From positions 124,001 to 188,000 of the forward strand of contig WHVA01000156.1 in the NCBI GenBank assembly GCA_015179125.1: DNA of 64,000 nt. The letters are read 5' to 3'. Source of the stretch: Gautieria morchelliformis. Its lineage: Eukaryota > Basidiomycota > Agaricomycetes > Gomphales > Gomphaceae. A program made the translations under genes and the position numbers. The notes below the pieces were generated by a model, which saw only the letters and a list, made by a program, of their open reading frames with translations, searched no databases and was not told where the DNA came from. This document shows positions 2,597-49,661 of this stretch, in pieces (within the stretch, counting starts at the first letter, position 1; every line of letters begins with the position of its first letter).

Positions 2597-2713
2597 TAGA
2601 AAACTCTCACTAGAGCACCGGTTGCGAAATCGCCCGACTTCGAATTGAACACCCTTCGAAAGCAGCGATTTTAGCAATCCTTTCTCATACCCTGACACCC
2701 TCTAACACTTACC

Positions 2714-4150: not shown

Positions 4151-4460
4151 TGTAAATAACCTGTGTATCTACATGTACAATAGTTATTACATAATCCCAG
4201 TGGGCCCCTTAGGGACCCACTGTATAGTTTATGCGTGGGAACCAGCCGGCGGTCTCCATCACATCTTACTCTTACCTGTCACTACGTAGCATTCAGAATA
4301 CCACTCATTGGTCAAGTTCTGTAGTGCCCTTGTGATACAAGGTCATAAGATCGACATCCTTTACACCTTTTTGAACTATCCTGCGGTTAATCACCACGCG
4401 ACCAACCGATAGTGGATTCGAAGCAATCTTGAAAAAGATCGCTGTGTCGATGACTAAACA
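4151..4460 (+). repeat. 5' LTR of gypsy A (310 bp)
   Basis: Begins TGTAAATAACCTGTG and ends GACTAAACA, so it has TG...CA ends. A 309-bp homologue lies in reverse at 37080-37388 and a broken one at 48894-49160. It contains an 11-bp inverted repeat (arms CAGTGGGCCCC / GGGACCCACTG, one mismatch) that is perfect in the 37317-37341 copy. Confidence 0.9.
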
Positions 4461-5469
4461 TCGTTGAGACCCTCCAGTAGACCCTCTACTGTCGGCTGCG
4501 AGCATGATGATTCCACGCAGTCGAAGACGGACACGAGCGACGAGCTCAAGGTCCACGCCCCAGGCGCAGCCCAGTGACACGACGGCTGACGCTACCCTGG
4601 ACCAAGAGTCCAGGACGATAGAAGACGGAGAGATCGTAGACCTCACCGCCCTCGTCCCCTCAGTAGAGGACGAGGAAAACCCCGACCACATCTCGTTGAG
4701 TGTGGCCGAGGAAGAGATGACGCTGGGCAATGAGCCGGCGCTGCCCCCCCATTCCTCTCTGCTCAGAGACAAAGGAAAGGGCAGAGAAGTCTCGCCGTCG
4801 TCAGACGGTAGAGCAACAACGTCGAGGCGGGCACAAAGCCACAACTCAAACCGACACTCATGAAGTAGAGTGACGTCGATCGTCCCTGAAGGAGGACGAC
4901 GGCAAAAAAGACGAGCCCCAGACGATGGTCAGGACTCGGAATACTCGAGCTCAAGTCGCAAGAGCTCGAGGGCTCACACCATCGACCACGAGACGGCAGA
5001 GGCCCTGAACAAACAGGTGCAGGCTGCGCTGCACCGAAGCACGCTGATGCGCCACAAGCATGATCAGCTGGCATCGCAGCTTGACAACGCCGCCGCCGCC
5101 CTAATGGCAATCGGCAAGGAACTCCACCAGGCGGAGGACAGCCAACGAGCGCAGTCGTGACGTGGAAGACCCGCGCTGAAAGGAGCGGGACAAGCAGCGA
5201 ATGCCGCCGCCAGCCGTCCCGGTTGAACAGGACGTAAGGTTCAGGAACGAACCTCAAGAGCAACTGGCTGCCCCAACGGACAGCCGTAAAACGATCTAAC
5301 AGATCGTTAGGGAGCAGGTCGCCTCAGAGCCTGACTCTGAAACGACGACCGAGAGCTTAGAGCTTGAGGTCGCACACTGGCAGCGTAAGGAAGCCGCAGC
5401 CGCGCGCCGCCACACATGGGCACTCGAGCTACTAGCGAAGAACGCTGAAGAGACAGTGGCCCACAGCCA

Positions 5470-6223
5470 TGATAAGAGATACTCCGTATATGTTTAGACT
5501 TTATGTGGGATTATAATTCAGACTTCGAGAGAAGCTGAATCGAGTAGAGTTCGATTTGTTGAGAGAATCGCGTGTACTATGGAAAGTGTATCTGACTGTG
5601 AGAACTATTTCAGTCTGGAATCTCGAGACGGTGGGGAGGATAAATTTCTGTTATTACTGCTAAAGAATCACATTTGTTGGTAACTATTTAACTACCGGGA
5701 AGAGGCTCGGCGTCGATACGATGCTCACGGTTCATAACACAGGAGTATAGGGGAAAGTGGTGTGGAGTCGAGAGCAAACCTTCGAGTGAATAGTACAAGG
5801 GATTACTAGGTAGTTGCTGTGTATGAGACGGTGATGTGATGGAGTATGTGGTTGATACATAGGAGAAACCTTGGACTTGCAGTCGAAGCCGCTCAGGGAC
5901 GATCGAATGCATATCATGTCTTGATTGGGATTGAATAGGTGCCTAAGCGGGGATCTACGCCTCGGGTCGGTCCCTCGATCGAGATTGATGTGATCAGTGT
6001 ATGTAATGTGATGACGACCGGCTTGGCATGCCCTGTACGCGTGTGTGGCTTTGTATTGGTCCGGCTTCGTGTATATGCGAGTCAGGGGGTTCGGGGATAT
6101 CTTTATGTGTCTGAGTGTGGACGTGGGCATGGGTTTTGGGAAGCGTGTGGTTCGGTTTCGTCAGCGTGTCTTAGATATAGATCTGGGTGATGTCATTACT
6201 ACCTTTACTTGATTATCACAACA
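5470..6223 (-). repeat. solo LTR in gypsy A gag (754 bp)
   Basis: The insertion is bounded by a perfect 5-bp duplication AGCCA (5465-5469 and 6224-6228), and the homologous gag in copy C is continuous across the site. Read on the minus strand it begins TGTTGTGATAATC and ends CTCTTATCA. The first 11 bases match the start of the 1.06 kb elements at 18767 and 19996, so these may be relatives. No internal coding region is left. Confidence 0.85.
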
Positions 6224-6593
6224 AGCCACACTGCTCAGCTGCCCGACGAGCAGCTCACGCAAGCCGTAAAGGACGCATGGCAGGCACGCACAGCCTACAA
6301 CAGCAGGCTGCGGATCTGCAACGTGGGATTGACCGGGGACACCAGGCACAAAACGCCCCCTGAACCGAGAGCACAAAATGCTCCCGATCCCGAGCCCGAT
6401 CTGGGCCCGGGGCCCGTTAGGGCATATGTTAGGGATCGTCCACAAAGTAGCTACCTATTTATGAACATTTACTAGGTAGTTAATTAGTTTCAAATGTCCT
6501 CAAGGAAGGTTGTATTAATATTTCTATGCTACACTCACATTGGGTCCACAAGATACAACAATCTCTTGATAGTTTAGCTAAGAATCCCCCACG

Positions 6594-6826
6594 GTCACAT
6601 GACTATCACATGACCTCAAAACAGCCCAAAGTCACCTGATCATCCACAGTCACCTGACAATCACCTGACCTCAAAGTCACCTGATTATCTACAGTCACCT
6701 GACAATCACCTGACCTCAAAGTCACTTGATTATCTACGGTCACCTGACAATCACATGACACAGTCACATGACCTCAATCCAGCATGAAGTCACATGACTT
6801 TCCTTCGTCACATGATAATCACATGA
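6594..6826 (+). promoter_or_regulatory. array of about 15 E-box-like sites inside the solo LTR
   Basis: Roughly fifteen CANNTG cores, nearly all in the symmetric context TCAC(A/C)TGA, occur in 233 bases, partly as imperfect tandem units with CAATCACCTGACCTCAAAG spacing. E-box (CANNTG) sites are classic bHLH protein targets. The array lies upstream of the LTR TATA box, which fits an enhancer role, but that role is inferred. Confidence 0.6.
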
Positions 6827-7027
6827 GCGTGGGAGTTTCTTACATACTCTTAGCTTTACTGTCACAGAGCTGTGACTTTAACCCAATATAGCAATAGAAC
6901 CTTCCACAGCCTTCCAATAGTTTCCAAACCTTTCCTGAAGCTTCTCTAAGCTTCCACAAGGTTCTTCACAGTAGTAGAAGCCTCTACAAGGTTCCTGGCA
7001 GTAGTTACATAAGCTAGATAGATGCAG

Positions 7028-7036
7028 TATAAATAG
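7028..7036 (+). promoter_or_regulatory. TATA box of the 1480-bp LTR
   Basis: TATAAATAG lies downstream of the E-box array and upstream of a CT/CA-rich stretch where LTR transcription would be expected to begin. Position relative to the array supports it; no start site can be read from sequence. Confidence 0.55.
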
Positions 7037-9784
7037 CCTGCAGTTTTAGCAGTGAAGCAATCAATTATCTTTCACCCAAACCACTCATACCTTGAGTAAC
7101 TGAAGTATGACTTCAACACAGCCTTGTACCGAAGTACTGGCTCACTGACTTGGCTACAGTCTAAGATTGCAGCAACTCTGATTGGCTCTGAGAAGTACAA
7201 GAGTGCTCTATTTTAATTGCAGCAGGCTCTGACTAATCGCGCTGCGAACAGCAACATTACTAAGAGTAACTGATTAGTAATCCTGTACCATTAGACGCCA
7301 CTCTGAGCAGTGATCTAATAGACTTGGTTATTAGTTATTCAATTCACGCAATAGATTATTAACTTAACTCTGAGTTAAGTGGGTTAATAGCCTTTTGAGT
7401 AATTGATCTTTCTTGATCAATCAACGCACTGCAGATATTAACCTAACTCAGGGTAAGTGAGTTAATATCCTACGTTTGTTGAGTTGGAAAACCAGAAAAG
7501 CCACAAGAATAGTGACATACTTGAACTGAGGAAGAGTTCAAGCGCAGAACTATCTTTTCATGTCTTGGGGATTATTGTTGTCTTTAATTCACTCGACCCG
7601 CGGTCCTAAGACTCTAGGTAGCTTTCCCCCTTAAAGTATCTGGAGCCTTGGACGCCTAATAACATTCTTTGACCTCACAAAGTATTGCACAATCTAAGAA
7701 CTACATGTGTTCAGTTAAATCTCTATTGCTACACTTCCTGTACCAATACTGATTCTGATTGTTCACCGGAGTATAATTTCTTAATTGGGTGCTCCGTTAA
7801 AATAGTTTCGAAGCTTGCGTGTGCTTGTAAAGTCAAATCTCTGATTGAACTTTAGAATTGTGTTTAACACCACAGTTTTACGTTTAGTTCAACGGGTTCC
7901 AAAACAGCATATAACAGCCCGCCCCGCATGGCATCACAACCGCGCGAGCGATCCATGGCCCCACCGGAAGGCCAGGGAATCCCTGACCAGGCCGACGTCG
8001 TACCAATGGAGCCATACGACGGGATCACACAGATGATCCGCGTGGCGTTAGCAGACGCCGTGGACACAGACCCGGAGAAATCTGTGCTAGCGAAAGCCGG
8101 CGTAAAATTGGCTCACCCCGAGCCATATACCGGGGGATCTGACCTCGAAGAGTTTGAAATCTTCGTGGCAGCCATCTTACGATGGCTGAAAATGAATTGC
8201 CTCCTAGGGCCAACCAGCATCGACATGCAGGTCGGCTACGTGGGCACTCGCCTCACCGGCGAAGCCCAGGAGTGGTTCCTTCGAAACGTTGAACGCTTCG
8301 ATCGCCAGGTCCACAGCTGGACGCTGGAAACTGTGATGCAAGGCCTTCAAAAAAGGTTCCTGTACACACTGACGTACCATCACACATCAAATAAGTTTGA
8401 CGTGGTCATGCAGGGCATGAAAACCGTTCAGGAAATGCTGAACAAGCTCATGAAATACGTGGCACGTATGATACAGCCGCCAGACGATTACACGTTCCGG
8501 AGACGGTTCGTATCGGCGCTGCGCAAAACGCTGTGCAATGAGGTCCTCAAAAAGGGCTATAATGCTGAGAGCAGCTCAATAGAGCAACTCTTCGAGATGG
8601 CCCGGATGATCGAGGAGGCATCCCGATACAACATGGGGATGTGCCGCGCAGAAAGCGCAGCAGCAACGGCAAGCACTGCCCGGCTCACAGGGAGCAAGCC
8701 GTTGACACAAACGGGCCTGACCAGGCCCAGCCTGTTCACAAGAAGCGGAACAGGACAACGGCTACCGCCCTCACGCCCAGCACAGGCTGGACGCCCACCT
8801 GAAGCTAAACAGCCTCAAGCGTCAGGGTTGTCCCCACGACCTGCCCCACCAACGAAAGCGTTGGGCCGGCCTAACAATCGACCCAGCGGCAACCAAAGCA
8901 ACACCACGTGCTTTGAATGCGGCCAACCTGGCCACAAAAAGGCAGAGTGCCCCCGGCTTAGATCCGGTATAAGGACAGCAGCCGCGAGGCATGACGATGA
9001 GGCCGAGGATCCGGAGATGGATCTCAGTCAAAATTCTCTTCAACAGATTGATGAAGAGGGGGAGGGTGATACCCAACCCAATGACACTCCAGACAACGGA
9101 GACACGCCCGCTGAAGAGTGGGACCCCGAACCGTCCCAATACTATGAATGGGATGAGGAGGTGGAAGACACCACCTACAGGTCCAGCGCGATCAGATTTG
9201 TGCCGGAGGATGAAACCGCCACGAAGGTCATGGCGGCACGCACGTCAGTCACGCCAGACAAGGTGGCCGAGCCGGTGTATCACCACCGAAGCAAACACAG
9301 GACGCGGCCAACGTGCCCGCGCAGTGAGAACCGTACCCTATTGGGGTACTGGGAAATAAACGGCGTAAAAGCCCACTGCCTGCTAGATAGCGGCAGCGAA
9401 GGGGTACTGCTATCCCCCAAATTCACGCGAGCTACAGGGATGAAGACATTCTCCCTGGAGCAACCAATCATGCTGCAGCTAGCCTGCATAGGCAGCCGTT
9501 CCACGATCAACTATGGAATGAACATGACCATCAAGTTTGGTCGCGGGACATATGACGAATACTTCGACGTAGCAAACGTCGAATATTACGACGCGATCTT
9601 AGGGACACCGTTCCTAAGGAGATTCAGCATAACCCTGGACTTCTCGAGCCCAGGGACGATCCACAAGGGGAACGAAGTGATCCCCACGGGCAAGGTATCG
9701 TTCGATGACGACGGATCGACGAACGAGGACAAGGGGCCACAGGTGAGCAAAATCACCCAGGCACCGAAGCCTAACCTGGCTCAT

Positions 9785-9822
9785 TGAAGCCAGGAGGATG
9801 AGTCGCGGGACAACTCGTCCTC
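9785..9822 (+). promoter_or_regulatory. in-frame UGA with downstream hairpin between gag-protease and RT (copy A)
   Basis: UGA at 9785-9787 is followed in the same frame by pol. After a 6-nt spacer (AGCCAG) comes a 12-bp quasi-perfect stem, arms 9794-9805 and 9811-9822, with a 5-nt loop. Further small hairpins follow, including CCCTAC/GTAGGG and TCACC/GGTGA. The same UGA, spacer and stem are present in B (UGA at 42918-42920, minus) and C (33909-33911, minus); in C the 12-bp stem is perfect. This is the layout of stop-codon readthrough signals in retroviral gag-pol, but use as readthrough is an inference because hairpins are everywhere in this element. Confidence 0.55.
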
Positions 9823-12800
9823 GAACTCACCCTACAACCGTAGGGAGAGGCGCTCTCACCTAACGGTGAAAGTGATGGGGAAGAGGAAAACAGTTCCGCG
9901 TGCCGCGGGACCTAATAGATGCACACAGCGCCTAATGGCTTCTAAGCCAAGCACCACCATCATCCTCACGGATGATGACCTTCCTCGCCTCCGCGAGGAA
10001 TGGATGGAACGAATCACTGACTTAGTCAGTGGAATTCCATTAGAACTCCCACCACTATGGGAGATCAACCATGAGATCAACCTCATTGATCCCAACAAGC
10101 ACATGCGGTATTGACTACCGAAATGCCCCGAACACTTCCGAGAGGAACTATCGGCTAAGATAGAATGATACACCACTGCAAAGTGGTCAATTCCGGCAGT
10201 CGTGCAGCAGGCAGTGCCCATGCTGTGTGTGCCGAAGAAGAACGGTACATTGCGAACCGTCTTCGATCTGCGCCAGCAGAACGAGAACACGGTGAAGGAC
10301 GTCACGCCCTTCCTGGATCAGGATATCATCCGCAGCGACATGGCTCGCTGTCGGTATCGAACAAAACTCGATATGTCAGAAGCATACAAGCAGATCTGGA
10401 TCCATCCGGATCACGTAGCAAAGACTGCCTTTGCCACGATCCTTGGCACATTCAGGAGCCAGGTGATACAGATGGGAGACTGTAACGCCCCATCAACATT
10501 CCAACGGCTGATGACAGCCATTTTCCGCGACTGCATAGGTCGCTTCGTCCATGTATACATGGACGACATCTTCATATTCTCGCTCTCAATACAAGAGCAT
10601 GAAGAGCACCTCTACATCGTCTTTGACAGACTGAGGAAGAATCACCTTTTTCTGAGCAAGAAAAAGGTGGACCTCTATTCCATCCGAATGGAGTGTCTCG
10701 GCCATATCATCGATGGCCGAGGGGTACATGCCGACGAGGACAAGATGCAACGCATCCGCGAGTGGCGCAGGCCACGGACGTTCAATGACGTCCAGCGTTT
10801 CCTCGGGCTGGTACAGTATCTGGCACACTACATGCCAGATGTTAGCGCATATACCACCCCACTATCGGGCTGTGCGCGTAATAACCATCCATTTGAATGG
10901 ACGCCACTACTAGACAAATGCTGGCAAAGCATTAAGGCATTGGCCTGTAAGGCCCCGACCCTGCATCCAGTAGACGCCAGGTGCCCAGAGCCGATCTGGG
11001 TGATCACAGACAGATCAAAAGCCGGTGTCGGTGCGGTCTACGGCCAAGGTCCGGACTGGAAAACTTGTCGACCTGCCGGCTTCTTGTCAAAGAAGTTCAG
11101 CGTTGCGCAGCAACACTACCGGACTCACGAGCACGAGACGATCGCGGTGCTCGAGGCTCTCATGAAATGGGAGGACAAACTGCTGGGACAAAGGTTCACC
11201 CTCGTCACAGACCACAAAGGGCTCGAGTACTTCGAGACCCAGAAGAGCCTATCTGACCGCCAGGTCAGATGGTGGGAGTTTCTCTCCCGGTTCAATTTCA
11301 ACACTATTCATGTTGACGGTGTAGAGAACAAGGTAGCGGACTGCCTGTCGCGCTACTACGAGAGCGACACGAGTGATGACAATCACCCGGACCACGTCTT
11401 AGTAAACGCGGATGCGCGTCTAGACCCGGAGGGTGAGTTATTGCCCACCAACCGGTATATCGAGCTGCGAACAGCGGCGACGAGATGTTCTAAACGCCTC
11501 GCTGAGAAGACAGAGGCGAGAGTAACGGAATCCGCCGCACTAAACGAGGGCTCACCAGAGCCCACGAACGTCGCCACGTCACGCGACGACGACGATGATG
11601 TCAGAGCCATCGCTGCAGGAAACAACAGCGCGCCCCTGCGCCGGGTCGTCGAGCAAGGCATAGACCTGTCTAAGGTCATACGAGACGCGTACCACAGGGA
11701 CACCATGTTCACAAAGATCATGGTGCACCCGGACACGCACCTGAGATTCGGGATCTGGGACGGGCTGATCTGGACCAAGAATCAGCTCAAAAGAGACGTC
11801 ACTGCCGTCCCCTGCTCTGTTCTTCAAGGGGGAAGGAAGCTGATCGAAATTATCATTGATCGGGCACATCAGATAGTCGGCCACTATGGCCATCTGAAGA
11901 CTTCGAACTACATTCAAAGAGCATATTGGTGGCCAGGCATGAGCCCAGACATAGAAGCGTTCTGCACATCATGCGCGAGGTGTCAGATGACGAAAACCGG
12001 ACCACAACGGCCCAAAGGCCTACTACACAGCCTACCCATTCCAGATAGGCCGTGGCAGTCGATTGGCATCGACTTCATGGGGCCCCTGCCCAAATCCAAT
12101 GACTGTGACTACCTGATGGTAGTCATCGACCGACTAACGTCGCTCGTACACCTCATACCAACAACAACGAGCGTGTCAGCCAAGGGAGTAGCCTGGCTGT
12201 TTCTGAAGGAGATCATTTGACTCCATGGGGTTCCCGACTCCATCGTCTCAGATAGAGACTCGAAGTTCACGTCGATCTTCTGGCGTGAACTACAGCGACT
12301 CATGGGGACTAAGCTCCTCATGTCAACTGCCTTCCATCCCCAAACGGATGGAGCCACCGAGCGGGCAAACCGCTCGATCGGCCAGATATTGCGCGCGATC
12401 GTCAGAGATGACCAGAAGGATTGGGCATTGAAATGCCCAATGGTTGAGGTCGCCCTCAACAGCAATGTCAGCGCAACCACAGGGTTCACACCGTTCAAGC
12501 TGAACCACGGCTATATGCCGCGGATAGACCTCCCCATAGCTGTGGACACCCCGTTCAAGGGGGTAGCCCGGTTCGCACATCAGGCAAAATGGAACCTGAT
12601 GGCGGCACACGATGCAATCATAGAGCATCGAGTGACGCAAACGTTTCATGCAAACAAGAAACGTATGGCGAGCGACAGGTACGCGGCCAACGACCGCATC
12701 TACCTTTCGACACAAAACCTAACTCTTCTGAAAGGAAGAGCCAGAAAACTAGTCCCGCGGTACATTGGACCGTACCGTGTTGTGGAGGCTCACAACGACG

Positions 12801-13150
12801 CCTCGACGGTGACCCTTGATCTTCCCGACGAGCTGAAAAGCCATCGCATTTCACCGGTCTTCCATTCAAGCCTCGTACGGCGATACAAGGCCAACAACGA
12901 CGAATTGTTTCCCCATCGTGAGGCCAAGTCATTTTATGACTTCGGAGCGAATGACGACGAGGAGTGGCTCGTCGACGAGATTATCGCACATCAATGGATA
13001 AACTCGACGGACCTGGAGTTCCAGGTCCGTTGGACCTTAGGCGACGTGACATGGGAACCCATGTCATCCTGCAAGGACCTTGAAGCCCTAGATAGCTATC
13101 TAGAGCTTAGGGGGGTGACTAAGCCATGCGACCTCCCCAGATGCCGCTAG
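9788..13150 (+). pseudogene. gypsy A pol: RT, RNase H, integrase, chromodomain
   Basis: One reading frame from the UGA to 13150. Domains in order: reverse transcriptase with VYMDDIF at about 10552-10572; RNase H (YRTHEHETIAVLEAL region near 11118); integrase with the HHCC zinc motif (about 11866-11987) and core residues GIDFMGP, SDRDSKF and the TERANRS segment; and a C-terminal chromodomain-like tail (FQVRWTLGDVTWEP) near 13020-13060. These enzymes copy the RNA and insert the cDNA in the nucleus; the chromodomain places it with the chromoviruses. Three TGA stops at 10112, 10166 and 12218 interrupt it, all at codons that are CGA or CAA in copies B/C or close relatives. There is no frameshift. 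It overlaps the inverted-repeat tiling described in findings. Confidence 0.88.
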
Positions 13151-13305
13151 ACGTGTCTGTCACGTGCAGACCACGTGATGCGCCGGCCACGGCGCGGTTA
13201 AATTTCACCTCGGATCTCTCCGAGGGCGCATCGCTTCTTGGAAGCTAACCACCATCATCCTCACAAAGATGATGCCCCCAAAGATGGGATGGACGTTGAT
13301 CTGTC

Positions 13306-13801
13306 TGTAGAGGACAGGAATTATAGGCAGTAGGAATGGACTTCTTGCTCGAAAGAATAGACTAGAAAACAATTCACTCTCTCAGTGAATTTAGTTGTCA
13401 CTGTAAATATATTATACACTACCTAGAAAACAATTCACTACAGAGGATTTCTAGGTTAATAAATCGAAAGAATACTAGACTAATTTACTTGCCTCTCTCA
13501 GTGAATTTAGTTGTCACTGAGAGAGGGGGAAACTGTTTCACTGCGCATGTACTACTACCGGCCCTTTAGCGCCCAAGAGCTCGCGCGTCGAAGTCATTTC
13601 AGACTCCGCTGGGTGCAGCCGCTTGTGAAAGTAGGAATAACAAGATGAAATGGAGAGATAGGGAGTGAGTGGAAAATTTCGAAAATAACCAGAGAAATGG
13701 ATGCATGATACAAGAACAACATGAGAAGAAATTGAGAAAGCACACAACAAATTGGATATATTATGCTTGATTTTGGTGCAGGAGCATCAATGCACCCAAC
13801 A
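13306..13801 (-). repeat. 3' LTR of copia E (496 bp)
   Basis: On the minus strand it begins TGTTGGGTGCATTG, directly after a purine-rich tract, and ends CCTCTACA. The D LTR (49161-49648) is a clear relative in its first ~250 bases. It contains a 12-bp perfect inverted repeat, arms CTCTCTCAGTGA and TCACTGAGAGAG, at 13493-13525. Confidence 0.85.
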
Positions 13802-13814
13802 CGCCCCCTCAAGC

Positions 13815-16800
13815 TTAATATATTCCGATTTGTTCGTTGAGGATCTTCACTCTAGGACTAGGAAGTCCTTTGGTGAGGATATCTGCCAACATTTGTTCGG
13901 TTGGCAAATAAACGAGCTTGGCTTGTTGATTTTTGATTATATCTCGAAGGAAATATAATCTGATGTCGAAATGTTTGGTTCTCGTGTGTTGTTGAGTGCC
14001 ATACGTGATGGCAATGGCTGATTGATTATCTGAATAAATTTTGATGGGTCTGTTCAGTGGTTGGAATATTTCAGAAATAAAATGGCGCATCCAAAGAGCC
14101 TCTTTGCCCGCATGGGTCAGGGCGACGAATTCGGCTTCAGTTGATGAGAGGGCTACTATCGACTGTTTCTGGCAACTCCATGAAACAGTGCCTCCATCAA
14201 TCTGAAATAAGTATGCCGAATACGAACGCCTATGACTCTGTGAACCCCAATCCGCATCTGAATACCCATCAGCCGTCTCGATTTCTTCCAAGTGTGAGCT
14301 TGTAATGCTTCGTGCCTTTCAAATATTTGAAGACACGTTTGACTGCATTCCAATGTGTGCCACCTGGATTTTCGAGGAATTGCGAAAGCAATGACACCGC
14401 AAATGCAATGTCAGGTCGAGTGGCTACAGCTGCCCACATCAGTGATCCTATGGCTTGCCTGTATGGAAACTTCGACATGGCTTTCTTGCCTCTCTCTGTA
14501 GAAGGACATGGTCTTTTGATAATTTAACAGCTGGATCAAGGGCGTAGCATAAGTCTTTGCATCTTCGAGATTGAATTTCTTGATGATCTTCTTGATGTAT
14601 GCGGTTGTGAAATTGCAATAGTTTTCTTCTGCCAGTCTCTTTCGATTTTGAGTTCAATAGCCAATGAATTCGCCTAGATCTTTCATACTGAAGACCTGAG
14701 CAAGATCTCGTTTGATTTCGTCCAGGACTGACTGATTCTCAGCTGTGATGGTGAGATCATCCACAGCTGTTGCAATGATCACATGCCCCTTTCCGCCACG
14801 TCTATAAAATACAGCCCCATCTGTGGCTGACGTAGTGAATCCTAATTGTGGAATTCACCACTTAGACGTTTGTACCATTCCCTTCCAGATTGTTTGAGGC
14901 ATAGAGTGCTTTCTTCAAAAGTAGCACTTCGTCTTTGTCTCTAGACTCATATCCATACGGCTGCTTCATGTAAATAGGTTCAGGTAGTGTAGCATTGAGG
15001 TATGCATAGTCCACGTCCATTTGATGGATAGGCCAGTCATTCCTAGCAGCAATGGCGCATATGATCCGTAGGGAAGGATAACCGAGCAACAGGTGAGTAT
15101 GTCTCATCATAGTCGACTCCAAACTTCTGTGTGAAGCCTTGGGCACCATTCTCGATTTAGGCTTATTGGTTTCCCTTCTGGATTACGCTTCCAAAGGTAG
15201 ACCCATTTATTACCGACAATATTGGCTCCAGGAGGTGGTTTGGCTCGTTCCCACACTCCCTTGTCATTAGGGCCTCATACTCTTTGTCCATTGATTTCTT
15301 CCATATAGGATTATTCAGAGCTTCGTCTGCATTGCTAGGTTCAATTGACTCCAATCCGGTGCCTTGTTATTGTTTGACCGTCGGTTGGAAATGCACTGAT
15401 GGCAACTCATAGCTACTGATGCCATCAATCTCGGAGGATAATTCTTGGTCGAATAAATTTCTTTACGGTCCTCAGGTCCTCGTAAGCTAGCGTAGTCATA
15501 TGTGTGCCAGCTTGTCTCTGGTTTGAGATCTTGTTACGGGACCTGATGGGGCCGCTGCACTTGTTGTTGACGGATCCTTTGCTTCTCCTTATCGGTTCAG
15601 CTTCTTTAGGTCTGTCATCAACTCCCTGAATAGGTTGCAGCTTTCAAGATATTCCTCTGGTGCACTTTCATCAATTTCTTCGATCTTTGCCTCTTCGCTG
15701 ACTAAGCGACCAGGCACAGGTGCTGATGCTGGAATGGCCTTCTTCTCCTCTCTAGACATAGGCAGCTGGATTCCTCAATAGAAATGATTGGGACTTTTCC
15801 CTTCTTCATCTCTGAGTCAAACACAATGTTCCGCTCGACAGAAACTTTGTGAGAGTCAGGCCAATAAACATAATGACCATGGCTCTGCACAGAAATTCCT
15901 ATCCACCGAGCTCTTTTGGCATGAGCTGCCAATTTATCTCCCTGATTGACCTTAACATAGACTTCAGCTCCCCATGTGTGAATGTCTTTGAGATTCGGTT
16001 TCTCACGGTGAATCATTTCATAAGGCGTTTTATCCGGTAGAGCTCTTGTATGCATCCTGTTCCTAAGATAATTGGCATGCTGTATCGCATAGCCCCATAA
16101 TATCTTAGGAAGACCTGATTTGAATAGCATGGCATGGGTTCTCTCAGTGAGAGTTCGGTTCAGACGTTCGGCAACACCATTAGACTCTGTGTCAACCGAT
16201 GCTTCGTGCCTTGTTTGGCCAGGTGCTGTTTGAATTCAGAGCTCGTATATTCGCCCCCTCGATCAGAAACAAGTGCCTTGATGTGCACATTTCTCTGTTG
16301 AAGCATTAGAGCCTCGTAGAGTTTGTATTTTGAGAATGCTTCCGATTTGTTCGCCATGAGATAGATCACTGATTCCCTTGAGTAATCATCGATAAAAGAG
16401 ACATAATATGACTTTTTATCGATTGTGAGGTGCCTTGCAGGTCCCCAGACATCAGAATAAATTCTGTCACCGAATTTTGATGTACGGTCTCTGGGTTCTC
16501 GAGGAAGAGGTTTGCATGCAATCTTGGCTTGAATGCACGCATCACAGACAATTCTATCGCCTGTGGAACTCAGTTCAATGCCCAATATCATGCCACGATT
16601 GAGTAGATGTTGTAGGGACTTCTGTGAGATGTGCCCCATTTTTTGATGAATTTCCATGGCAGACATACACATATGTGCTTGAGCACTTGGTGACTGGAGG
16701 TCTAGTCGATATAAGCCATTGATCTTCGGTGCTTGCATCAATATCTTTCCAGCAGCATTAGATATTGTGCATTTCTGGCCACCAAGTCGAATATCGTAGC

Positions 16801-18028
16801 CAGCATCATCGCACTGACCGATTGAGACGAGGGTACCAGCAATTTTTGGTGCATAGTATGTATCTTGCAACATGACTTCTACTGTTTTATCTCCAACCTT
16901 ATTGGATAATACGAGCAGTCCAGAGCTGAAGGCATCAAAAGTGCCTTTGTTGGCTGCTCGGATAGTCCTCGGCTGTGAGAATTGACAGTAGTTCCTCAAT
17001 AAATTTTTATGAGGAGTCATATGTGATGTCATTCCAGTGTCGAGTATGACTATAACTCCTGAGGATGTGCTCAGATTGAAATTAGAGCACTCGTCGAAAT
17101 TGGTGAAGGCAAGATGCCCATCATCACTTTCCTCAGAAGAGGTCTCTTCTTCGGCAACATTTGCTTTTGCTTTACCCTTCTTCTTCTTCTTGCCTTTGGC
17201 TTTTTTCTTCTGACATGGTCCTTGACCTTCTTTACCACCTCCTTTAGCCCAGCAATTTTCAATAGAATGTCCAGGCTTTTTGCAGTTACTGCATGTATGC
17301 GTCTTCTGCCCTTTCTGGTCCTTCTTGGTAGATGAACCAATAAACACCTGCACTTCTTGCGGGAGTGTTTTCTTCCTGTCATACTGAGCCTTTAGTACCC
17401 TAATAATGTCATCAGGGACTAAGGGTCTCCCGCATTCTTCAAGTGAAGTGGTAAGGGCATTCATGACAGCCTCATAGGATGGTGGAAGTGACACAAGGAT
17501 AATGTCCATAAATTCTTCTTCAGAAACTCTGGCTCCCATCTCATTAAGACGAGCATATAGGTCCTGGGCCTTGTCCAAATGAGCTCTCAAGTCTCCATCC
17601 TTAGGACATCTCATACTACGGAGTTGTCTCTGCAGGCTGGTGAGGACCATCTTGGGCTTCTTGGTCATTTCATTGACCAGTGCATCCCAAGTCTCTTTTC
17701 CTGTCTTTTGTTTCTGTAGCATCAGAGCTAGTGACTCTGACACTGAGACAATGATTTGGGTCTTGGCTTGTCCTTCTCTAGCAAGATATCTCTCCAGCTT
17801 CTCCTCAGCCTTATCCATCTGAGTTTCCTCAGCTTCTGTACGAATATGGCCTGGGGGCATGACTGGAGGATCAGGAGGTCGAGTGACTCTGCCTTCTACA
17901 TGCTTGAGTAGATTTTTGGACTTGAAATAGCTGATGAGAGTGGGTCGCCACAGTGGCCAATTACTTCCATCTGTAGCAAGCTTCTCAACACCCAAAAGCT
18001 TCTGTGAAGTGTCTCTGGGGCCCACAAC
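13815..18028 (-). pseudogene. copia E gag-pol, frameshifted
   Basis: A 5' portion of about 620 codons is open (16160-18028). It has a UBN2-type gag, a zinc knuckle (CSNCKKPGHSIENC near 17260), a protease motif altered to DTGMTSHMT (normally DTGATSHM), a gag-pre-integrase domain and the integrase core with SDVWGP and SDRGGEY. Downstream, at least five frame changes break the integrase end, the RT (AYLNATLPEPIYMKQPYG near 14985, VDDLTI region near 14750) and RNase H (YSDNQSAIAI near 14010). The intact homologue D shows where each break lies. The extra N-terminal residues of the open frame come from the solo LTR inserted at 18029. Confidence 0.85.
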
Positions 18029-32659: not shown

Positions 32660-32730
32660 TTCATCGCACAATACTTGGTAGTTTGGAGCATTTCGTTGGT
32701 ATTGTGACAGAGCATTTTTTTCGGGCAAGT

Positions 32731-33908
32731 GGACGCAGGATTGGGGCCTTACAGGCCAACGCCTTAATGCTTTGCCAGCATTTGTCGAGCAGAGGCGTCC
32801 ATTGAATGGACGGTTATTACGCGCACAGCCCGATAGCGGGGTGGTATATGCTCTGACATCGGCATGTAGTGTGCCAGATACTGTACGAGCCCGAGGAAGC
32901 GCTGGACGTCGTTGAACGTCCGTGGCCTGCACCACTCGCGGATGCGTTGCATCTTATCCTCATCGGCATGTACTCCTCGGCCATCGATTATATGGCCGAG
33001 GCACTCCATTCTGATGGAGTAGAGGTCCACCTTTTTCTTGCTCAGAAAGAGGTGGTTCTTCCTCAGTCTGTCAAAGACGATGTAGAGGTGCTCTTCATGC
33101 TCTTGTATTGAGAGCGAGAATATGAAGATGTCGTCCATGTATACATGGATGAAGCGACCTATGCAGTCGCGGAAGATGGCTGTCATCAGCCGTTGGAATG
33201 TTGATGGGGCGTTACAGTCCCCCATCTGTATCACCTGGCTCCTGAAGGTGCCGAGGATCGTAGCAAAGGCTGTCTTTGCTATGTGATCCGGATGGATCCG
33301 GATCTGCTCATATGCTTCTGACATATCGAGTTTAGTTCGATATCGGCCGCGAGCCATGTCGCTGCGTATGATATCTTGATCCGGGAAGGGCGTGACGTCC
33401 TTCACCGTGTTCTCGTTCTGCTGGCGCAGATCGAAGACGGTTCTCAACGTACCGTTCTTCTTCGGCACACACAGCATGGGCACTGCCTGCTGCGCTACTG
33501 CCGGAATCCACCACTTTGCAGTGGTGTATCGTTCTATCTTGGCCGACAGTTCCTCTCGGAAGTGTTCGGGGCATTTCGGTAGTCGATACCGCATGTGCTT
33601 GTTGGGATCAATGAGGTTGATCTCATGGTTGATCTCCCGCAATGGCGGGAGTTCTAATGGAATTCCACTGACTAGGTCAGTGATTCTTTCCATCCATTCC
33701 TCACGGAGGTGAGGAAGGTCATCATCCATGAGGATGATGGTAACGGTTGGCTTAGAAGCCGTTAGACGCTGTTGGCGTCTATTAGGTCCCGCGGCGCACG
33801 GGCCCGCTTCCTCTGTCCCATCGTTCTCACCGTCAGGTGAGAGCGTCTCTCCCTACGACTGTAGGGTGAGGTTGAGGACGAGTCGTTCCGCGACTCGTCC
33901 TCCTGGCT
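32731..33908 (-). pseudogene. gypsy C pol fragment (RT)
   Basis: After the UGA at 33909-33911 the sequence continues into the pre-RT linker; a 1-bp deletion near 33785 shifts the frame relative to A. From about 33729 to 32764 the RT is open, including VYMDDIF near 33143. A second 1-bp loss near 32810 (in the CGTCCATT stem) shifts the frame in RNase H. Integrase and everything after are absent. Confidence 0.85.
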
Positions 33909-33911
33909 TCA
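33880..33911 (-). promoter_or_regulatory. UGA with perfect 12-bp hairpin downstream (copy C)
   Basis: UGA at 33909-33911 (minus), spacer AGCCAG, then a stem with arms GAGGACGAGTCG and CGACTCGTCCTC and loop CGGAA. Compared with A (GAGGATGAGTCG) and B, base changes in one arm are matched or tolerated in the other. Confidence 0.55.
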
Positions 33912-36900
33912 ATGAGCCGGGTTCGGCGTCGGTGCTTGGGTGATCCTGCTCACCCGTGGCTCTTTGTCCTCGTTCTTCGAGTCGTCGTCGTTGAACGAGA
34001 CCTTGCCCGTAGGGATCACTTCGTTTCCCTTGCGGATCGTCCCTGGGCTTGAGAAGTCCAGGGTTATGCCAAATCTCCTTAGGAACGGTGTCCCTAAGAT
34101 CGCGTCGAAATATTCGACGTTTGCCACGTCGAAGTATTCGTCGTATGTCCCGCGACCAAACTTGATGGTCGTGTTCGTTCCATAGTTGATCGTGGAATGG
34201 CTGCCTATGCAGGCTAGCTGCAGCGCGATTGGTTGCTCCAGGGAGAATGTCTTCATCCCTGTAGCTCGCGTGAATTCGGGGGACAGCAGTACCCCTTCGC
34301 TGCCGCTATCTAGCAGGCAGTGGGCTTTTACGCCATTTATTTCCCAGTACCCCGATAGGGTACGGTTCTCACTACGCGGACGTGTTGGCCATGTTCTGTG
34401 CTTACTTCGGTGGTGATACACCGGCTCGGCCGCCTTGTCTGGCGTGACCGATGTGTGAGCCACCATGACCTTCGTGGCGGTTTCGTCTTCCAGCGCAAAT
34501 CTGATCGCGCTGGACCTATAGGTGGTATCTTCCACCTCTTCGTCCCATTCATAGTATTGGGACGGCTCGGGGTCCCACTCTTCAGCGGGCGTGTCTCCGT
34601 TATCCGGAGTGTCGTTGGGTTGGGGATCACCCTCCCCCTCTTCATCGATTTGTTGAAGAGAGTTTTGATCGGGATCCGTCTCCGGATCCTCGGCCTCACC
34701 ATCGTGCCTCACGGCCACTGTCCTTATACCGGACCTAAGCCAGGGGCATTCAGCCTTCTTGTGGCCAGGTTGGCCGCACTCAAAGCATGTGGCGTTGCTT
34801 TGGCTGCGCTGGGCCTGTCATTGGGCCAGCCCGACGTTTTCGTCGGTGGGGCAGGTCGCGGGGACGATCCTGGCGCTTGAGGCTGTTGAGCCTCAGGCGG
34901 GCGTCCAGTTTGTGTTGGGCGTGAGGGCGATATCCGTTGTCCTGTTCCGCTTCTTGCGAACAGGCTGGGCCTGGTCAGGCCCATTTGTGTCAACGGCTTG
35001 CTCCCTGTGAGCCGGGCGGCGCTTGCCGTTGCCGCTGCGCTTTCCGCGCGGCGCATCCCCATGTTGTATCGGGATGCCTCCTCGATCATTTGGGCCGTCT
35101 TGAAGAGCTGCTCTATTGAGCTGCTCTCAGCATTATAGCCCTTTTTGAGGACTTCGTTGCGCAGTGTTTCGCGTAGCGCCGATACAAACCGTCTCCGGAA
35201 CGTGTATTCGTCTGGCGGCTGTATCATACGTGCCGCGTATTTCGTGAGCTCGTTCAGCATCTCCTGAATGGTTTTCATGCCCTTCATGACCACGTCGAAT
35301 TTATTCGATGCGTTATGGTATGTCAGTGTGTGCAGGAACCTCTTTTGGAGGCCTTGCATCACCGACTCCAGCGTCCAGCTGTGGACCTGGCAATCGAAGC
35401 GTTCAACGTTCCGAAAGAACCACTCCTGGGCTTCGCCGGTGAGGCGAGTGCCCACATAGCCGACCTGCGTGTCTATGCTGGTTGGCCCTAGGAGGCAATT
35501 CATTTTCAACCATCGTGGGATGGCTGCCACGAAGACTTCAAATTCTTCGAGGTCCGATCCCCCTGCATATGGCTCGGGGTGGGCCAGTTTTACGCCGGCC
35601 TTCGCTAGCACAGACTTCTCCGGGTCTGTGTCCGCGGCGTCTGCTAACACCACGCGAATCATCCGTGTGATCCCATCGTACGGTTCTATCGGTACGACGT
35701 CGGCCTGGTCAGGGATTCCCTGGCCTTCCGTTGGGGCCATGGATCGTTCGCGCGGTTGTGACGCTGTGTGGGGCAGGCTGTTATATGTCCTGATGGGCCC
35801 CGGGCCCGGGTTGGGCTCGGGATCGGGAGCATTTAGTGCTCTCGGTTCCGGGGGCATTTTGTGCCTTGTGTCCCTGGTCAGTCCCGCATTGCGGATCCGT
35901 AGCCTGCTGTTGTAGGCTGCGCGCGCTTGCCATGCGTCTTGTATGGCTTGCGTGAGCTGCTCGTCTGGTAGCTGCGCGGTGTGGCTGTGGGCCACCGTTT
36001 CTTCAGCGTTCTTCGCTAGTAGCTCGAGTGCCTGTGTGTGGCGGCGTGCGGCTGCAGCTTCTTTATGCTGCCAGTGTGCGACTTCGAGCTCTAAGCTCTC
36101 GGTCGTGGTTTCAGAGTCAGGCTCTGAGGCAACCTGATCCCTAACGATCTGTTGGATCGTTTTATGGCTGTCCGTTGGGGCAGCCGGTTGTTCCTGAGGC
36201 TCGTTTCCGAACCTTACGTCCTGTTCGACCGGGACGGCTGGCGGCGGCATTCGCTGCTTGTCTTGCTCCTTTTGGCTCGCGTCGCGACTGCGTTCGTTAG
36301 CTGCGGACTGTCGCGAGCTCGGACGCGTTGCGTCGCGTTCCCCACATGGGCGGAGTGCTTTCTGGACGTCCTCCAGCGTGGTTGCATCTTGCAGCCTGAT
36401 CTCCTCCGCTTGGTGGAGTTCCTTGCCGATTGCCATTAGGGCGGCGGCGGCGTTGTCAAGCTGCGAGGCCAGCTGATCGTGCTTGAGGCGCGTCAGCGTA
36501 CTTCGGTGCAGCGCAGCCTGCACCTGTTTGTTCAGGGCCTCTGCCGTCTCGTGGTCGATGGTGTGAGCCCTCGAGCTCTTGCGACTAGAGCTTGAGTATT
36601 CTGAGTCCTGACTGTCGTCTGGGGCTCATCTCTTATGCCGTCGTCCTCCTTCAGGGACAATCGTCGTCGCTCTACTTCGTGAGCGTCGGTTTGAGTCGCG
36701 GCTCTGTGCCCGCCTCGATGTTGTTGCTCTACCGTCTGACGACGGCGATACTTCTCTGCCCTTTCCTTTGTCTTTGGGCAGATAGAGGTGGGGGGGCGGC
36801 GCCGACTCGTTGCCCGGCATCGTCTCCTCTTCGGCCACGCTCAACGAGACGTGGTCGGGATTTTCCTCGTCCCCTGCTGAGGGGACGAGGGCGGTGAGAT

Positions 36901-37036
36901 CAACGATCTCTCCGTCTTCTATTGTCCTGGTCTCTTGGTCCAGGGTAGCGTCAGCCATCGTGTCGCTGGGCTGCGCCTGGGGCGTGGACCTCGAGCTCGT
37001 CGCTCGTGTCCGTCTTCGACTGTGTGGAATCATCAT
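33909..37036 (-). pseudogene. gypsy C gag-protease, frameshifted near the start and at the zinc knuckle
   Basis: Starts at ATG 37036. The N-terminal part is open to about 36626 and includes EIVDLTALVPS. After one frame change, a 599-codon frame (36523-34724) covers the coiled coil and gag domain. A loss of bases just before the zinc knuckle (near 34800) puts the CCHC motif out of frame. The protease frame (34718-33909) is open and has CLLDSGSEG. It ends at the conserved UGA. This is the best preserved gag of the three copies. Confidence 0.87.
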
Positions 37037-37079
37037 GCTCGCAGCCGACAGTAGAAGGTCTACTGGAGGGTCTCAACGA

Positions 37080-37388
37080 TGTTTAGTCGTCGACGCAGCG
37101 ATCTTTTTCAAGATTGCTTCGAATCCACTATCGGTTGGTCGCGTGGCGATCAACCGCAGGATAGTTCAAAAAGGTGTAAAGATGTCGATCTTAGGACCTT
37201 GTATCACAAGGGCACTGCAGAACTTGACCAATGAGTGGTATTCTGAATGCTACGTAGTGACAGGTAAGAGTAAGATGCGATGGGAACCGCTGGCCGGTTC
37301 CCACGCATAAACTATACAGTGGGTCCCTAAGGGACCCACTGGGATTATGTAATAACTATTGTACATGTAGATACACAGGTTATTTACA
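37080..37388 (-). repeat. gypsy LTR shared by copies B (3') and C (5')
   Basis: 309 bp, minus strand TGTAAATAACCTGTG to GTTTAGTC's complement (GACTAAACA). The stop codon of the B post-pol ORF overlaps its first bases, and the C gag begins 43 bases beyond its end. Contains the perfect 11-bp stem 37317-37341 and a 7-8-bp stem GGGAACCG/CGGTTCCC. Confidence 0.9.
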
Positions 37389-39312
37389 CAATGACATCAT
37401 CGTATGAGGCTGGTAGAGCACACGACTCCTCCGGAGGCACCTCCGCATCCACGGGGGTGGTTGGGTGAGGCGGTTCTACCTCACCACTGGTGGGGGATTC
37501 CGCTTGGTTGACGAGGCCGGTGTCCTCGCGGAGCATGGCCTCGATGGCCAAGTCCTCGGCCTGGGGAGGATGCCGGAAGTGCGCCAGCTCTTGATCGAGC
37601 TGAGCATGTCGTGGTTCCGCGGCCCCCACGTGGCTGGTCTTGAGGACCTTTTGTTGGCCCTCCCGTGCGGCGGCACTGAATGCCGCACCGGTGAGGCTGC
37701 GTTGAACGTAATGTTAGATGCATGCCACTTGAGTGACGCTGGCGTAGCGGGCCAGCCATTGCACGATCTCGGCGAGCGGGATGTCGGGGCCAGCTCGTCC
37801 TCCCACGGGATATGGGCCCGTGATGGATAGCCGCAGGCTGGGGCTCTGCGGTGTCAGGCATTCCCTGGCATCGACGAGGCTCGACCATTGGTTGGTCAAG
37901 CCGAACAAGTCGAGGAGTCTCAACTTGAGAGGTGATGCGAACCCCTTAACTTGGGGTGTGAGGGCCTTCAACCACATCTAGACGTCCATGTCGTCTAGGT
38001 TGAAGGATCCATCTGCATTGTTGCAGATGGCAGAAGGGATTCCTTCGGGGTTGTGTATCCAACCCCTTAGGATGGCAGCGATGTCGTGCAGGGTACCGCT
38101 CGCTATCACGAGACAATCCCATTTGGGATTGCGAGCGCGCTGTTTGCGCTCGATGTGCTTGAACACGCCGATCATATCGCGTGTGCGCAAGGATTGCGGC
38201 GTGTCTTTTGTGCACGCTAGGAGCTCAACGAATTGTGTGTCATTGAGCGGGCAGACATCGTACCATTGCGTACGACGCTGTTGTGCCTTTCCTACCGGTT
38301 GTGGTAGGAGGCCCATTCCGGAGATCGGCGGGTCTCCGAGTGGCATGATCACTCCCTCCTCCAGGTAGGGAGGTGAACTGTCCCCACCGGTGGCGGGAGG
38401 TCCACGTGAGGTTATGTGAACTCTCCTAAGGAATAAACCCCATGGGATAATGTGCATTTTTTTCGTAAACTCAGTTTCCGTCTCTATGTTATTTTCTGTT
38501 GAAGTAGAAGATTACATATTAAATAAATACCATTTTTTCATCTATAGGTACTAGTTTTTTTTGTTTAAAAAAGAATCCTAACTCCTTCTATATATCCCCC
38601 CCCTGTGACAGTGATGCCACCAGGTATGCGCTGATCGCATTTTCCCTCGCAATGGCTAGACCATTGATGGTGTTGGGGGTGCCGCGCAATTTCTTGCGCT
38701 TCTTTTTTGGCTGCTCAGGTATACGCTGAGCGCTGTCCGGATTGTACGTCTTCCAGATGGAGGAGTCGGACTCCCATCCTTCTGGGATGCTGTACACTGG
38801 GTCGGATGGCCCGCTCCACCCCTCTGTCGACATTGGGGTGGGCACCGATATTTGGGAAGCCAGTCCCGAGGCTGCACATGCTGGAAAGGGCGCCGTCGTG
38901 TGAGGTGATGAGGGCCCGGCCACTGGGTCTGTGGCCAGGTCATGGCGCGGCCTTTTTGAGGCTACATGTGCGAGCTTGAGTTGGAGCTGGAGCGCACTCA
39001 GCTGCTCCTTGAGCTCTTTTACTTTGGTGCACTCGGTTTCGAGCGCGTTGTCGCGGTCTTCGACTGCACGTTCCAAGTCCTTGACCTCCTTTTTGAGGTC
39101 GTGGATGTCCCGCAGGGGCTCCACTCGCATGTCACGCGCGATTCCCTCAGGAGCCATCCCCAGGCCACGTCGACGGCGTCGCTGATGTCTTCATCCTGCA
39201 GTTTTACCTTGTGGGTGCCCATGGTGGCCCTTAAGTGTGTGGCGTAAGCCGCGCAGGTGTCACAATCGTCCGGGTGGACGATTGCCAAAGCGTCTTCCCA
39301 TTCTACAATCAT
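37384..39312 (-). pseudogene. post-pol ORF of gypsy B (coiled coil, NLS), unknown function
   Basis: Between the pol stop at 39550 and the 3' LTR. Part 1 (39312-38588, one frame change near 39155) has a CxxC motif (DDCDTCAAY) near its start, a heptad coiled coil (EVKDLERAVEDRDNALE ... LKEQLSALQLQLK), a Ser/Pro linker, and a basic NLS-like PKKKRKK. Part 2 (38457-37384) is one frame of about 358 codons with two stops (TAG at 37978-37980, TAA at 37714-37716) and a compact C-terminal region (DVCPLNDTQFVELLA ... WLKALTPQVKGF). A 130-bp AT-rich piece separates the parts. There is no signal peptide or membrane segment, so it is not env-like. It shares the hairpin tiling of pol, so it belongs to the element. 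No family is recognised. Confidence 0.7.
38458..38587. other. AT-rich spacer inside the post-pol ORF of gypsy B
   Basis: About 130 bases of strongly AT-rich sequence with T- and A-runs, ending near a C7 tract, unlike the GC-rich element around it. It could be an intron, a small insertion or a decayed end; no clean duplication or splice pair could be fixed. Confidence 0.4.
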
Positions 39313-39549
39313 CCAGTTTTCCTGGTCGACTGGGGCTCATAGGATGTCTGCAGCCCCTTGTCTCTGGGCCGTTGCATGTGTCACAGATGTTGACGGATCA
39401 ACGTCCATCCCATCTTTGGGGGGCATCATCTTGTGGGGAGATGATGGTGGTTTGCTTCCAAGAAGCGATGTGCCTTTGGAAAGATCCAAGGCGAAGCTTT
39501 AACCATGCCAAGGCCGGCACGTCACATGGTGTGCACATGACAGGCGTGT

Positions 39550-42500: not shown

Positions 42501-42917
42501 TGCGACTGCCGGAATCCACCACTTTTCAGTGGTGTATCGTTGTATCTTTGCTGACAGTTTCTCTCGGAAATGTTCAGGGCACTTCGATAGTCGATACTGC
42601 ATGTGTTTGTTGGGATTGATGAGATTGATCTCGTGGTTGATCTCCCGCAGCGGCGGGAGTTCTAATGGAATCCCACTGACTAGGTCAGTGATCCTTTCCA
42701 TCCATTCCTTGTGGAGGCGAGGAAGGTCGTCATCCGTGAGGATGACGGTGGTGGTTGGCTTAGAAGCCATTAGGTGCTGTGTGCGTCTATTAGGACCCAC
42801 GGCGTGTGGAACCGCTTTTCTTTTTCCCATCGCTTTCACCGTTAGGTGAGAGCGCCTCTCCCTACGATTGTAGGGCAAGCTCAAGGATGAGTCATTTCGC
42901 GACTCATCCTCCTGGCT
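39550..42917 (-). pseudogene. gypsy B pol: RT to chromodomain, several frameshifts
   Basis: Homologous to A pol throughout. Open segments: 42884-42210 (linker and RT start), 42196-40856 (RT palm with VYMDDIF near 42150, RNase H), 40724-40197 (integrase), 40185-39550 (integrase end and chromodomain-like tail ending LPRRH). A deletion of bases near 42205 removes part of GDCNAPSTFQ, and frame changes occur near 40870 and 40230. No premature stops other than those caused by the shifts were noted. Confidence 0.87.
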
Positions 42918-49648: not shown

Positions 49649-49661
49649 CGCCCCCTCAAGC

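Follow-up and report, generated by a model that had tools for sequence, protein, structure and literature searches.

A family of Ty3/Gypsy long terminal repeat (LTR) retrotransposons of the fungus Gautieria morchelliformis was densely tiled with short perfect hairpins over LTR, gag, pol and 3' region. Three of its copies (designated A, B and C; Table 1) were located in the window, i.e., the whole 64,000-nt stretch of DNA analysed here (assembly GCA_015179125.1, contig WHVA01000156.1, positions 124,001 to 188,000); positions below are those of the window unless a genomic locus (L plus number) is named. The hairpin excess was confined to one lineage among the three Ty3 families compared and was accommodated at synonymous sites, and inherited synonymous variants spared the predicted fold while private ones did not. 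These features probably reflect a genome-scale ordered structure, which selection acting on folding would have maintained during the active life of the element; the folded molecule would most likely be the genomic RNA.

Hairpin excess in the copies and in the lineage

Perfect stems with loops of 0-15 nt were counted by region and compared with 100 dinucleotide-preserving shuffles per region. The first-pass annotation had listed 15 stems in copy A, and all 15 were present where it placed them, some of them longer than described; the excess it reported was real but undercounted, a full scan of 4504-13305 giving 22 perfect stems of at least 8 bp. That interval had been taken as Gypsy throughout; it enclosed two foreign insertions (5470-6222 and 6428-7907), and the remainder was indeed element. 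Observed versus expected stems of at least 8 bp were 22 versus 1.67 in copy A, 14 versus 0.89 in copy B, and 24 versus 1.04 in the copy C body (the last count including an insertion at 44489-44887); within copy A, 4151-5469 had 3 versus 0.20 and 7868-13150 had 16 versus 1.04. Stems of at least 10 bp numbered 4 versus 0.08 in A (4151-13305), 4 versus 0.05 in B, and 6 versus 0.02 in the C body, and longer stems in 4151-13305 were the more enriched, from 4.4-fold (at least 6 bp) through 13-fold (at least 8 bp) to about 50-fold (at least 10 bp). The loop-length profile peaked at 4-5 nt, and stems of at least 6 bp were enriched 5.5-fold at loops of 0-10 nt, 1.8-fold at 11-20 nt, and 1.2-fold at 21-100 nt (expectations for loop length, as for the phage stem-fold figures below, came from mononucleotide shuffles within 100-nt blocks); copy C with its self-complementary insertion at 44489-44887 had a further 1.6-2.2-fold excess at loops of 51-200 nt.

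Two of the longest stems could be followed among copies: (i) the palindrome over the YMDD codons of reverse transcriptase (RT) displayed a two-sided compensatory change, the pair being G-C in A, A-C in B, and A-T in both C and locus L050; and (ii) the stem at 10643-10669 had a 10-bp counterpart at the corresponding position of copy C and a single A-C break in copy B.

The excess tracked the Gypsy intervals; little of it was seen in the neighbouring copia elements D, E and G or in two insertions, 5470-6222 and 46379-48785. The insertion at 5470-6222 had no stem of at least 7 bp and 2 of at least 6 bp versus 1.97 expected, with mean folding z of 0.01 and 0.49 on its two strands. By eye, the copias had been judged free of the trait: they were far weaker than Gypsy, with 3.6-6.1-fold enrichment of stems of at least 8 bp (whole elements, D 7 versus 1.15, E 4 versus 1.11, G 5 versus 1.14) as opposed to 13-23-fold in the Gypsy copies, but they were not flat in either stem counts or folding. 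Copias D and E carried a weaker, sense-biased version of the trait (sense versus antisense z: D -1.34 versus -0.56, E -1.11 versus -0.76).

Predicted folding was measured in windows. In 150-nt windows, mean sense z was below -2 in all three copies (A -2.63, B -3.05, C -2.24) and at zero in the 54-64 kb part of the window; by the same yardstick, the RNA phages MS2, Qbeta and PP7 (windows containing N excluded in the last) had -2.83, -3.13 and -3.03, respectively, and -2.70, -3.33 and -2.71 on the other strand. In 350-nt windows, a size used in virology (with shuffling similar, not identical, to the published procedure), the folding excess was 22.9% in A, 29.3% in B, 19.7% in C, and 21.7% in the C 3' region, together with 29.5% in MS2 and 31.4% in Qbeta; it was 11.0%, 12.6% and 6.1% in copias D, E and G, 5.5% in 1-4150, and 1.8% in 54-64 kb. 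The whole element at L049 had an excess of 23.9%, with 23 of 24 windows at z < -2, a value passed also by 13 of 13 windows in copy B and by four of five in the C 3' region. LTR, leader, gag, pol and 3' region were all structured, the LTR of copy A alone being weakest (18.8%, z -2.0), and the flanks in L046 and L047 fell to background.

Coding constraint did not account for the stems. Synonymous shuffles that kept protein and codon usage (60 per open reading frame (ORF), loops up to 10 nt) gave, for nine Gypsy ORF stretches, 30.6 expected stems of at least 6 bp (maximum 44) versus 133 observed, and 3.1 of at least 8 bp versus 30 observed; five copia ORF stretches had 26 versus 18.8 (maximum 26) and 1 versus 1.0, respectively. 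The 133 stems were spread flatly over the codon registers (47/41/45). Four RT or integrase stretches were compared with 120 pol homologues listed of 1144, and in columns conserved at 90% or more the match to homologues was 0.906 under stems (n = 96) and 0.911 elsewhere (n = 461). With residues undisturbed and an excess over synonymous shuffles, synonymous choice therefore carries most of the stem excess. The earlier claim that hairpins run through gag, pol and LTRs of one Gypsy family was borne out by these shuffles and by folding: neither of the two outcomes named as refuting it, stem counts no higher than in codon-preserving shuffles or than in the adjacent copias, was observed.

A protein search of the own genome gave 67 matches, and 41 further genomic copies were examined, i.e., 29 loci besides A plus 12 more divergent ones (expectations from mononucleotide shuffles within 100-nt blocks). 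In the RT segment, each of the 30 loci including A had 19-28 stems of at least 6 bp versus 2.7-5.7 expected, with a mean of 6.1 of at least 8 bp versus 0.28 (lowest 2 versus 0.5, in L028), and the 12 divergent loci had 3 to 9 of at least 8 bp versus 0 to 0.6. The subfamily members L050, L051 and L053, at 75, 84 and 87% nucleotide identity, had 12, 10 and 10 such stems versus 0.75, 0.57 and 0.57. Four 5-kb stretches of two other Ty3 families in the same genome (two stretches each) had 0, 1, 0 and 0 stems of at least 8 bp versus 0.8-1.25 expected, and a folding excess of 2.5-6.1% at a composition similar to that of the hairpin family. Pfam matches identified gag, RT, RNase H and integrase in L054, gag in L056, and RT, RNase H, integrase and chromodomain in L057, and L055 was taken as a Ty3 comparison by its gag match only. 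Since these four stretches were flat, the trait is proper to one Ty3 lineage and belongs neither to the host genome nor to Ty3 elements at large (three families tested).

An artefact of base composition, codon usage, host mutation bias or assembly is highly improbable. It would be favoured by the mild excess in the copias and in a few other parts of the window (stems of at least 8 bp: 5 versus 0.49 in 18028-21066 and 8 versus 2.17 in 53857-64000), but the Gypsy excess outlasted both dinucleotide and synonymous shuffles, background values were found in the insertion 5470-6222 as well as in the L046 and L047 flanks, and the two Ty3 families of similar composition were flat.

Inherited variation, strand and origin of the hairpins

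The effect of sequence differences on the predicted fold was measured against controls that agreed with them in base change, codon position and CpG; because the copies and pairs are related by descent, the p-values are optimistic. Differences among A, B and C disturbed the sense fold less than controls in six of six settings (five at p < 0.001, one at 0.09), and the antisense fold was likewise spared in six of six (four at p < 0.001, the others at 0.16 and 0.21). For the RT segment, 43 copies with 34 ungapped contexts supplied 1113 variants, each with at least six matched control sites. Synonymous variants confined to one copy behaved like random sites (+0.02 kcal/mol, p 0.57), and the values for variants present in more copies were as follows: -0.11 (p 0.30) in two copies, -0.27 (p 0.03) in three to five, and -0.45 (p 0.001; antisense -0.22, p 0.07) in six or more. 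Three other segments, represented by 15, 24 and 24 of 30 copies (6, 19 and 13 ungapped contexts), gave +0.09 (p 0.74) for synonymous variants in one copy and -0.80 (p 0.002; antisense -0.68, p 0.005) for those in six or more; nonsynonymous variants found in two copies also spared the fold there (-0.57, p 0.001). Overall, evolution in the active lineage respects the fold, and the decay of inserted copies disregards it.

In comparisons of A with three subfamily members (changes no more than 46 nt from an end, or lacking enough control sites, were omitted), the fold was spared in six of six settings, with intervals below zero on both strands; the same test between the phages MS2 and fr was weaker, one of two intervals excluding zero. 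A stem was counted as kept when all but at most one pair remained, and chance stems were those with long loops: between A and L050, 50.6% of stems of at least 6 bp were kept versus 23.3% of chance stems, and between MS2 and fr (77% identity), 60.0% versus 31.0%. Where both sides of an A/L050 pair had changed, pairing was kept in 26 cases and lost in 10, versus 82 and 82 in chance stems (Fisher p 0.017), and pooled comparisons of L050 with L051 and L053 gave p 0.0011 for compensation. When synonymous codons of L050 were resampled, a mean of 3.5 of 40 A stems survived (maximum 8 in 200 runs) and 20 were observed; this null also strips plain homology, which makes the chance-stem control the fairer one.

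Several results weigh against selection on a fold of the genomic RNA. They concern (i) compensation, which was weaker than in MS2/fr, had p 0.40 for A/L051 and p 0.12 for A/L050 with 5-bp stems included, among close copies made up 0.060 of changes versus 0.054 in chance stems (mononucleotide 100-nt-block shuffles), and was likewise slight in another comparison of close copies, in which copies with more than 30 gaps did not serve as reference; (ii) classes of variants, as private nonsynonymous RT variants slightly spared the fold (-0.17, p 0.04; antisense -0.21, p 0.02), an effect not expected under plain selection on folding, shared nonsynonymous ones did not do so significantly (-0.09 and -0.12; six or more copies -0.12, p 0.27), synonymous variants in two or in three to five copies of the other segments fell short of significance for the sense fold (p 0.54 and 0.14), and stems were not significantly depleted of shared synonymous variants (odds ratio 0.77, p 0.31); and (iii) strands, as folding of the other strand was about equally strong (150-nt z: A -2.55, B -3.06, C -2.45), sense and antisense sparing across subfamilies were nearly equal (five of six differences including zero), one-mismatch helices in the sense of the three copies held 62 A-C (11x) and 18 G-T (6.3x) mismatches, and changes between A and L050 kept A-C (0.80 of the chance rate) above G-T (0.52), with no single test significant.

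The one-mismatch helices, with expectations from mononucleotide shuffles within 100-nt blocks, also held 27 A-A mismatches (10.4x; 2.6 expected over three copies). The phages had 5 A-C and 7 G-U (MS2) and 6 and 7 (Qbeta), albeit in small numbers, and changes between MS2 and fr kept A-C at 0.61 and G-U at 0.91 of the chance rate, again with no single test significant. A lack of G-U was considered as proof against sense RNA and dropped, MS2 and Qbeta showing the same near-equality.

These strand data bear on a second molecule. If minus-strand complementary DNA or antisense RNA were selected, the hairpins would serve reverse transcription or its protection; the more frequent retention of sense A-C (G-T in the minus strand) than of G-T and the equal strength of antisense folding fit this proposal, which we nevertheless hold to be quite unlikely. 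In most comparisons, sparing of the sense fold equalled or exceeded that of the antisense fold (RT variants in six or more copies, -0.45 versus -0.22; the A base in L053, sense -0.74 versus antisense -0.53), and the A-C versus G-T tests are singly non-significant and may be biased by the low T content of the sense strand (T 17% in this family, with A 27, C 29 and G 27%). Sparing energies leaned to the sense strand or were equal between strands. The folded molecule would most likely be the genomic RNA.

The hairpins may also have a mutational origin, in which reverse transcription would fold the nascent strand back and correct one hairpin arm by the other (quasipalindrome correction), leaving hairpins as a by-product merely filtered by purifying selection on the protein. 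We regard this as rather unlikely, although it would suit the Watson-Crick pairing without G-U preference, the enrichment chiefly at loops up to about 10 nt, the flat codon registers, the restriction to one lineage with its own RT, and arms that co-vary in places. The substitution clusters that it predicts were not enriched at arms (copies A and C, 12 versus 17.3 expected; A and B, 6 versus 5.6; B and C, 18 versus 15.7), although a single site near 9618 had three arm-copying changes in copy C; single-base corrections, however, would leave no clusters. Against such an origin stand the undisturbed amino acids in stems, the RNA phages with their likewise similar A-C and G-U numbers in one-mismatch helices, and the inherited synonymous variants, which were mildly destabilising to neutral (0.38 and -0.05 kcal/mol) and not strongly stabilising. 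A stronger version, an unlikely one, is a hairpin-writing RT lineage whose enzyme would align the arms and drive all regions toward perfect short palindromes, the arms evolving in concert; if true, the fold would be a heritable polymerase signature, later perhaps used as protection. The preferred reading is that selection, and not conversion, would maintain the fold.

Element anatomy and neighbouring elements

The features of the window are collected in Table 1. Among four long stretches compared, the element was 8.4 kb in L049, with 215-bp LTRs; these LTRs (140-354 and 8349-8563 in L049, corresponding to positions 1-216 of copy A) were 98.6% identical, and that insertion is therefore young. 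Flanking LTRs were found in L049, and copy A itself had no 3' LTR. Pfam matches along 7868-13150 displayed gag, protease, RT, RNase H and integrase in Ty3 order: RVT_1, RT_RNaseH, Integrase_H2C2, SH3_Tf2-1 and zf-CCHC were above cut-off in copy A, and Ty3_capsid, gag and protease matches were weak and below curated cut-offs. The integrase core had no Pfam match in the broken frames of copy A (7908-13305), and the chromodomain (PF00385) by which a chromovirus would be recognised was not found by Pfam behind integrase in 12221-13147 or 39553-40251. The nearest pol homologues bearing organism names, among 120 matches listed of 1144, came from Phanerochaete and Trametes, which points to an agaricomycete host, and no relatives of the element were present in the viral contig and genome contig collections searched.

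Copies C and B were arranged in tandem on the minus strand (37174-49163), apparently with one LTR near 37174-37389 common to both. Copy C was about 88% identical to A in pol, and its 3' region was 77-80% identical to those of L047-L049. Open frames lay behind integrase at 37978-39190 in the window, 7987-9042 in L047, 1439-2887 (minus) in L048, and 7437-8309 in L049; they matched no Pfam family above cut-off in copy C or L047-L049, and they may represent a third gene or a relic. The 399-bp insertion of copy C at 44489-44887 was self-complementary over its length (83%), as in a foldback-like element.

Table 1. Coordinates of Ty3/Gypsy copies, selected hairpins and neighbouring elements in the window
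Feature	Position	Strand	Remarks
Copy A, 5' part: LTR (about 4151-4366), leader, gag start	4151..5469	+	LTR bounds from L049
Insertion in copy A	5470..6222	none	internal negative control
Copy A, short gag stretch between two insertions	6223..6427	+	matches B 35783-35986 and C 45183-45386
Copy A, rest: gag, protease, RT, RNase H, integrase	7908..13305	+	Pfam; ends beside copia D
11-bp perfect palindrome over RT YMDD codons	10545..10566	+	
11-bp stem, 5-nt loop	10643..10669	+	
11-bp stem, 2-nt loop, integrase C-terminal coding	13007..13030	+	9 bp kept in copy C
Copia D	13362..18027	-	comparison element
Copy B	32730..37388	-	hairpin-rich; 3' end missing
LTR, apparently 3' end of copy C and 5' end of copy B	37174..37389	-	97% to 3' LTR of L049 (8348-8563)
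Copy C, 3' region behind integrase	37390..39391	-	open frames, hairpin-rich; only weak Pfam matches
Copy C, body	39392..46378	-	interrupted at 44489-44887
Copy C, 5' LTR and leader	48786..49163	-	87% to A 4171-4570; parted from body by insertion 46379-48785
Copia E	49213..53856	-	comparison element; Pfam RVT_2, Retrotran_gag_2, rve

The 1.48-kb insertion at 6428-7907 in the gag of copy A had internal repeats and was absent from B and C; it had a folding excess of its own (23.6% in 150-nt windows) and 3 stems of at least 8 bp versus 0.45 expected. Further observations in the window were as follows: (i) the pol protein of copia E had 60 matches listed in the genome at 98-100% identity; (ii) the copia G region (18028-28645) contained three LTR-like units at 525-bp spacing (27123-28645), and its part 18028-21066 held an inverted duplication (18766-19823 / 19996-21066); (iii) a tandem repeat with a 158-bp period was found at 62799-63275 in three copies, 97-98% identical; and (iv) gag of a second Ty3 family at 2696-3478 had 150 matches listed in the genome, about 40 of which, at 39-41% identity, belonged to a third Ty3 family.

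Known folded genomes and possible use of the fold

The literature on retrotransposon folding, palindromes and hairpins, with most subscription papers lying outside the part searched, held no LTR retrotransposon tiled with hairpins, in keeping with the initial impression that the trait was undescribed; in RNA viruses the phenomenon as such is familiar under the name of genome-scale ordered RNA structure (GORS), a name that the first-pass annotation did not give it. To our knowledge, genome-scale RNA folding has been discussed almost solely for RNA viruses, where its purpose is debated.

As far as the available text of PMC7642675 goes, the folding excess of GORS viruses is 7.5-10.7% in hepatitis C virus, 12.5% in human pegivirus, and about 15% in SARS-CoV-2, and the highest value recorded for a vertebrate RNA virus is 23.4%. 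The Gautieria family would resemble them, on that text, in an excess of folding along the whole coding genome, in consecutive stem-loops, and in pairings that partly turn over between relatives; it differs in that its carrier is an LTR retrotransposon, with an excess of 19.7-29.3% by a similar, not identical, procedure, and in a structure made up mainly of perfect, short hairpins with loops of no more than about 10 nt. It was like the RNA phages MS2, Qbeta, PP7 and fr in z-scores, two-strand strength and stem persistence at 75-77% identity, but stems of at least 8 bp were enriched 24x here versus 6.0x in MS2 and 8.6x in Qbeta, and MS2/fr tended to keep G-U and compensated more; common descent is not implied.

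Two further systems are of transposable elements. The genomic RNA of yeast Ty1/Ty3 is, in the portion of PMC11381356 at hand, a mosaic of structured and dynamic regions with stable structure of up to 30%; Ty3 there is of the same superfamily and likewise has structured genomic RNA, but the description, being of a mosaic and making no mention in that portion of a uniform hairpin tiling, sets it apart. For maize transposable elements, microRNA-precursor-like regions are described, in the accessible part of PMC10760457, as correlated with small-RNA mapping and common in most superfamilies; this is a likeness in that hairpins of transposable elements are tied to host small RNAs, and a difference in that a whole-element fold of one family is not stated in that part.

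The nucleic acid of the element is predicted to form short local hairpins packed closely from end to end, and the fold of the genomic RNA would be kept in the active lineage by selection for folding in itself, like that put forward for GORS viruses. The likeliest use, judged from known silencing pathways, would be shielding, in which stems of 6-12 bp, below the length needed by Dicer, may conceal the RNA from Argonaute or from RNA-dependent RNA polymerase. Stems may also slow the annealing of sense and antisense transcripts, the latter being expected where copies lie in both orientations (A versus B and C), and compact packing into Gag particles would be an alternative use.

Such a fold would explain an otherwise strange constraint on synonymous sites in a retrotransposon. 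Its presence in a many-copy cellular parasite, beside unfolded Ty3 families, provides a natural contrast of inherited versus decayed variation, and this contrast makes fungal RNA silencing, packaging and reverse transcription each testable as the cause.

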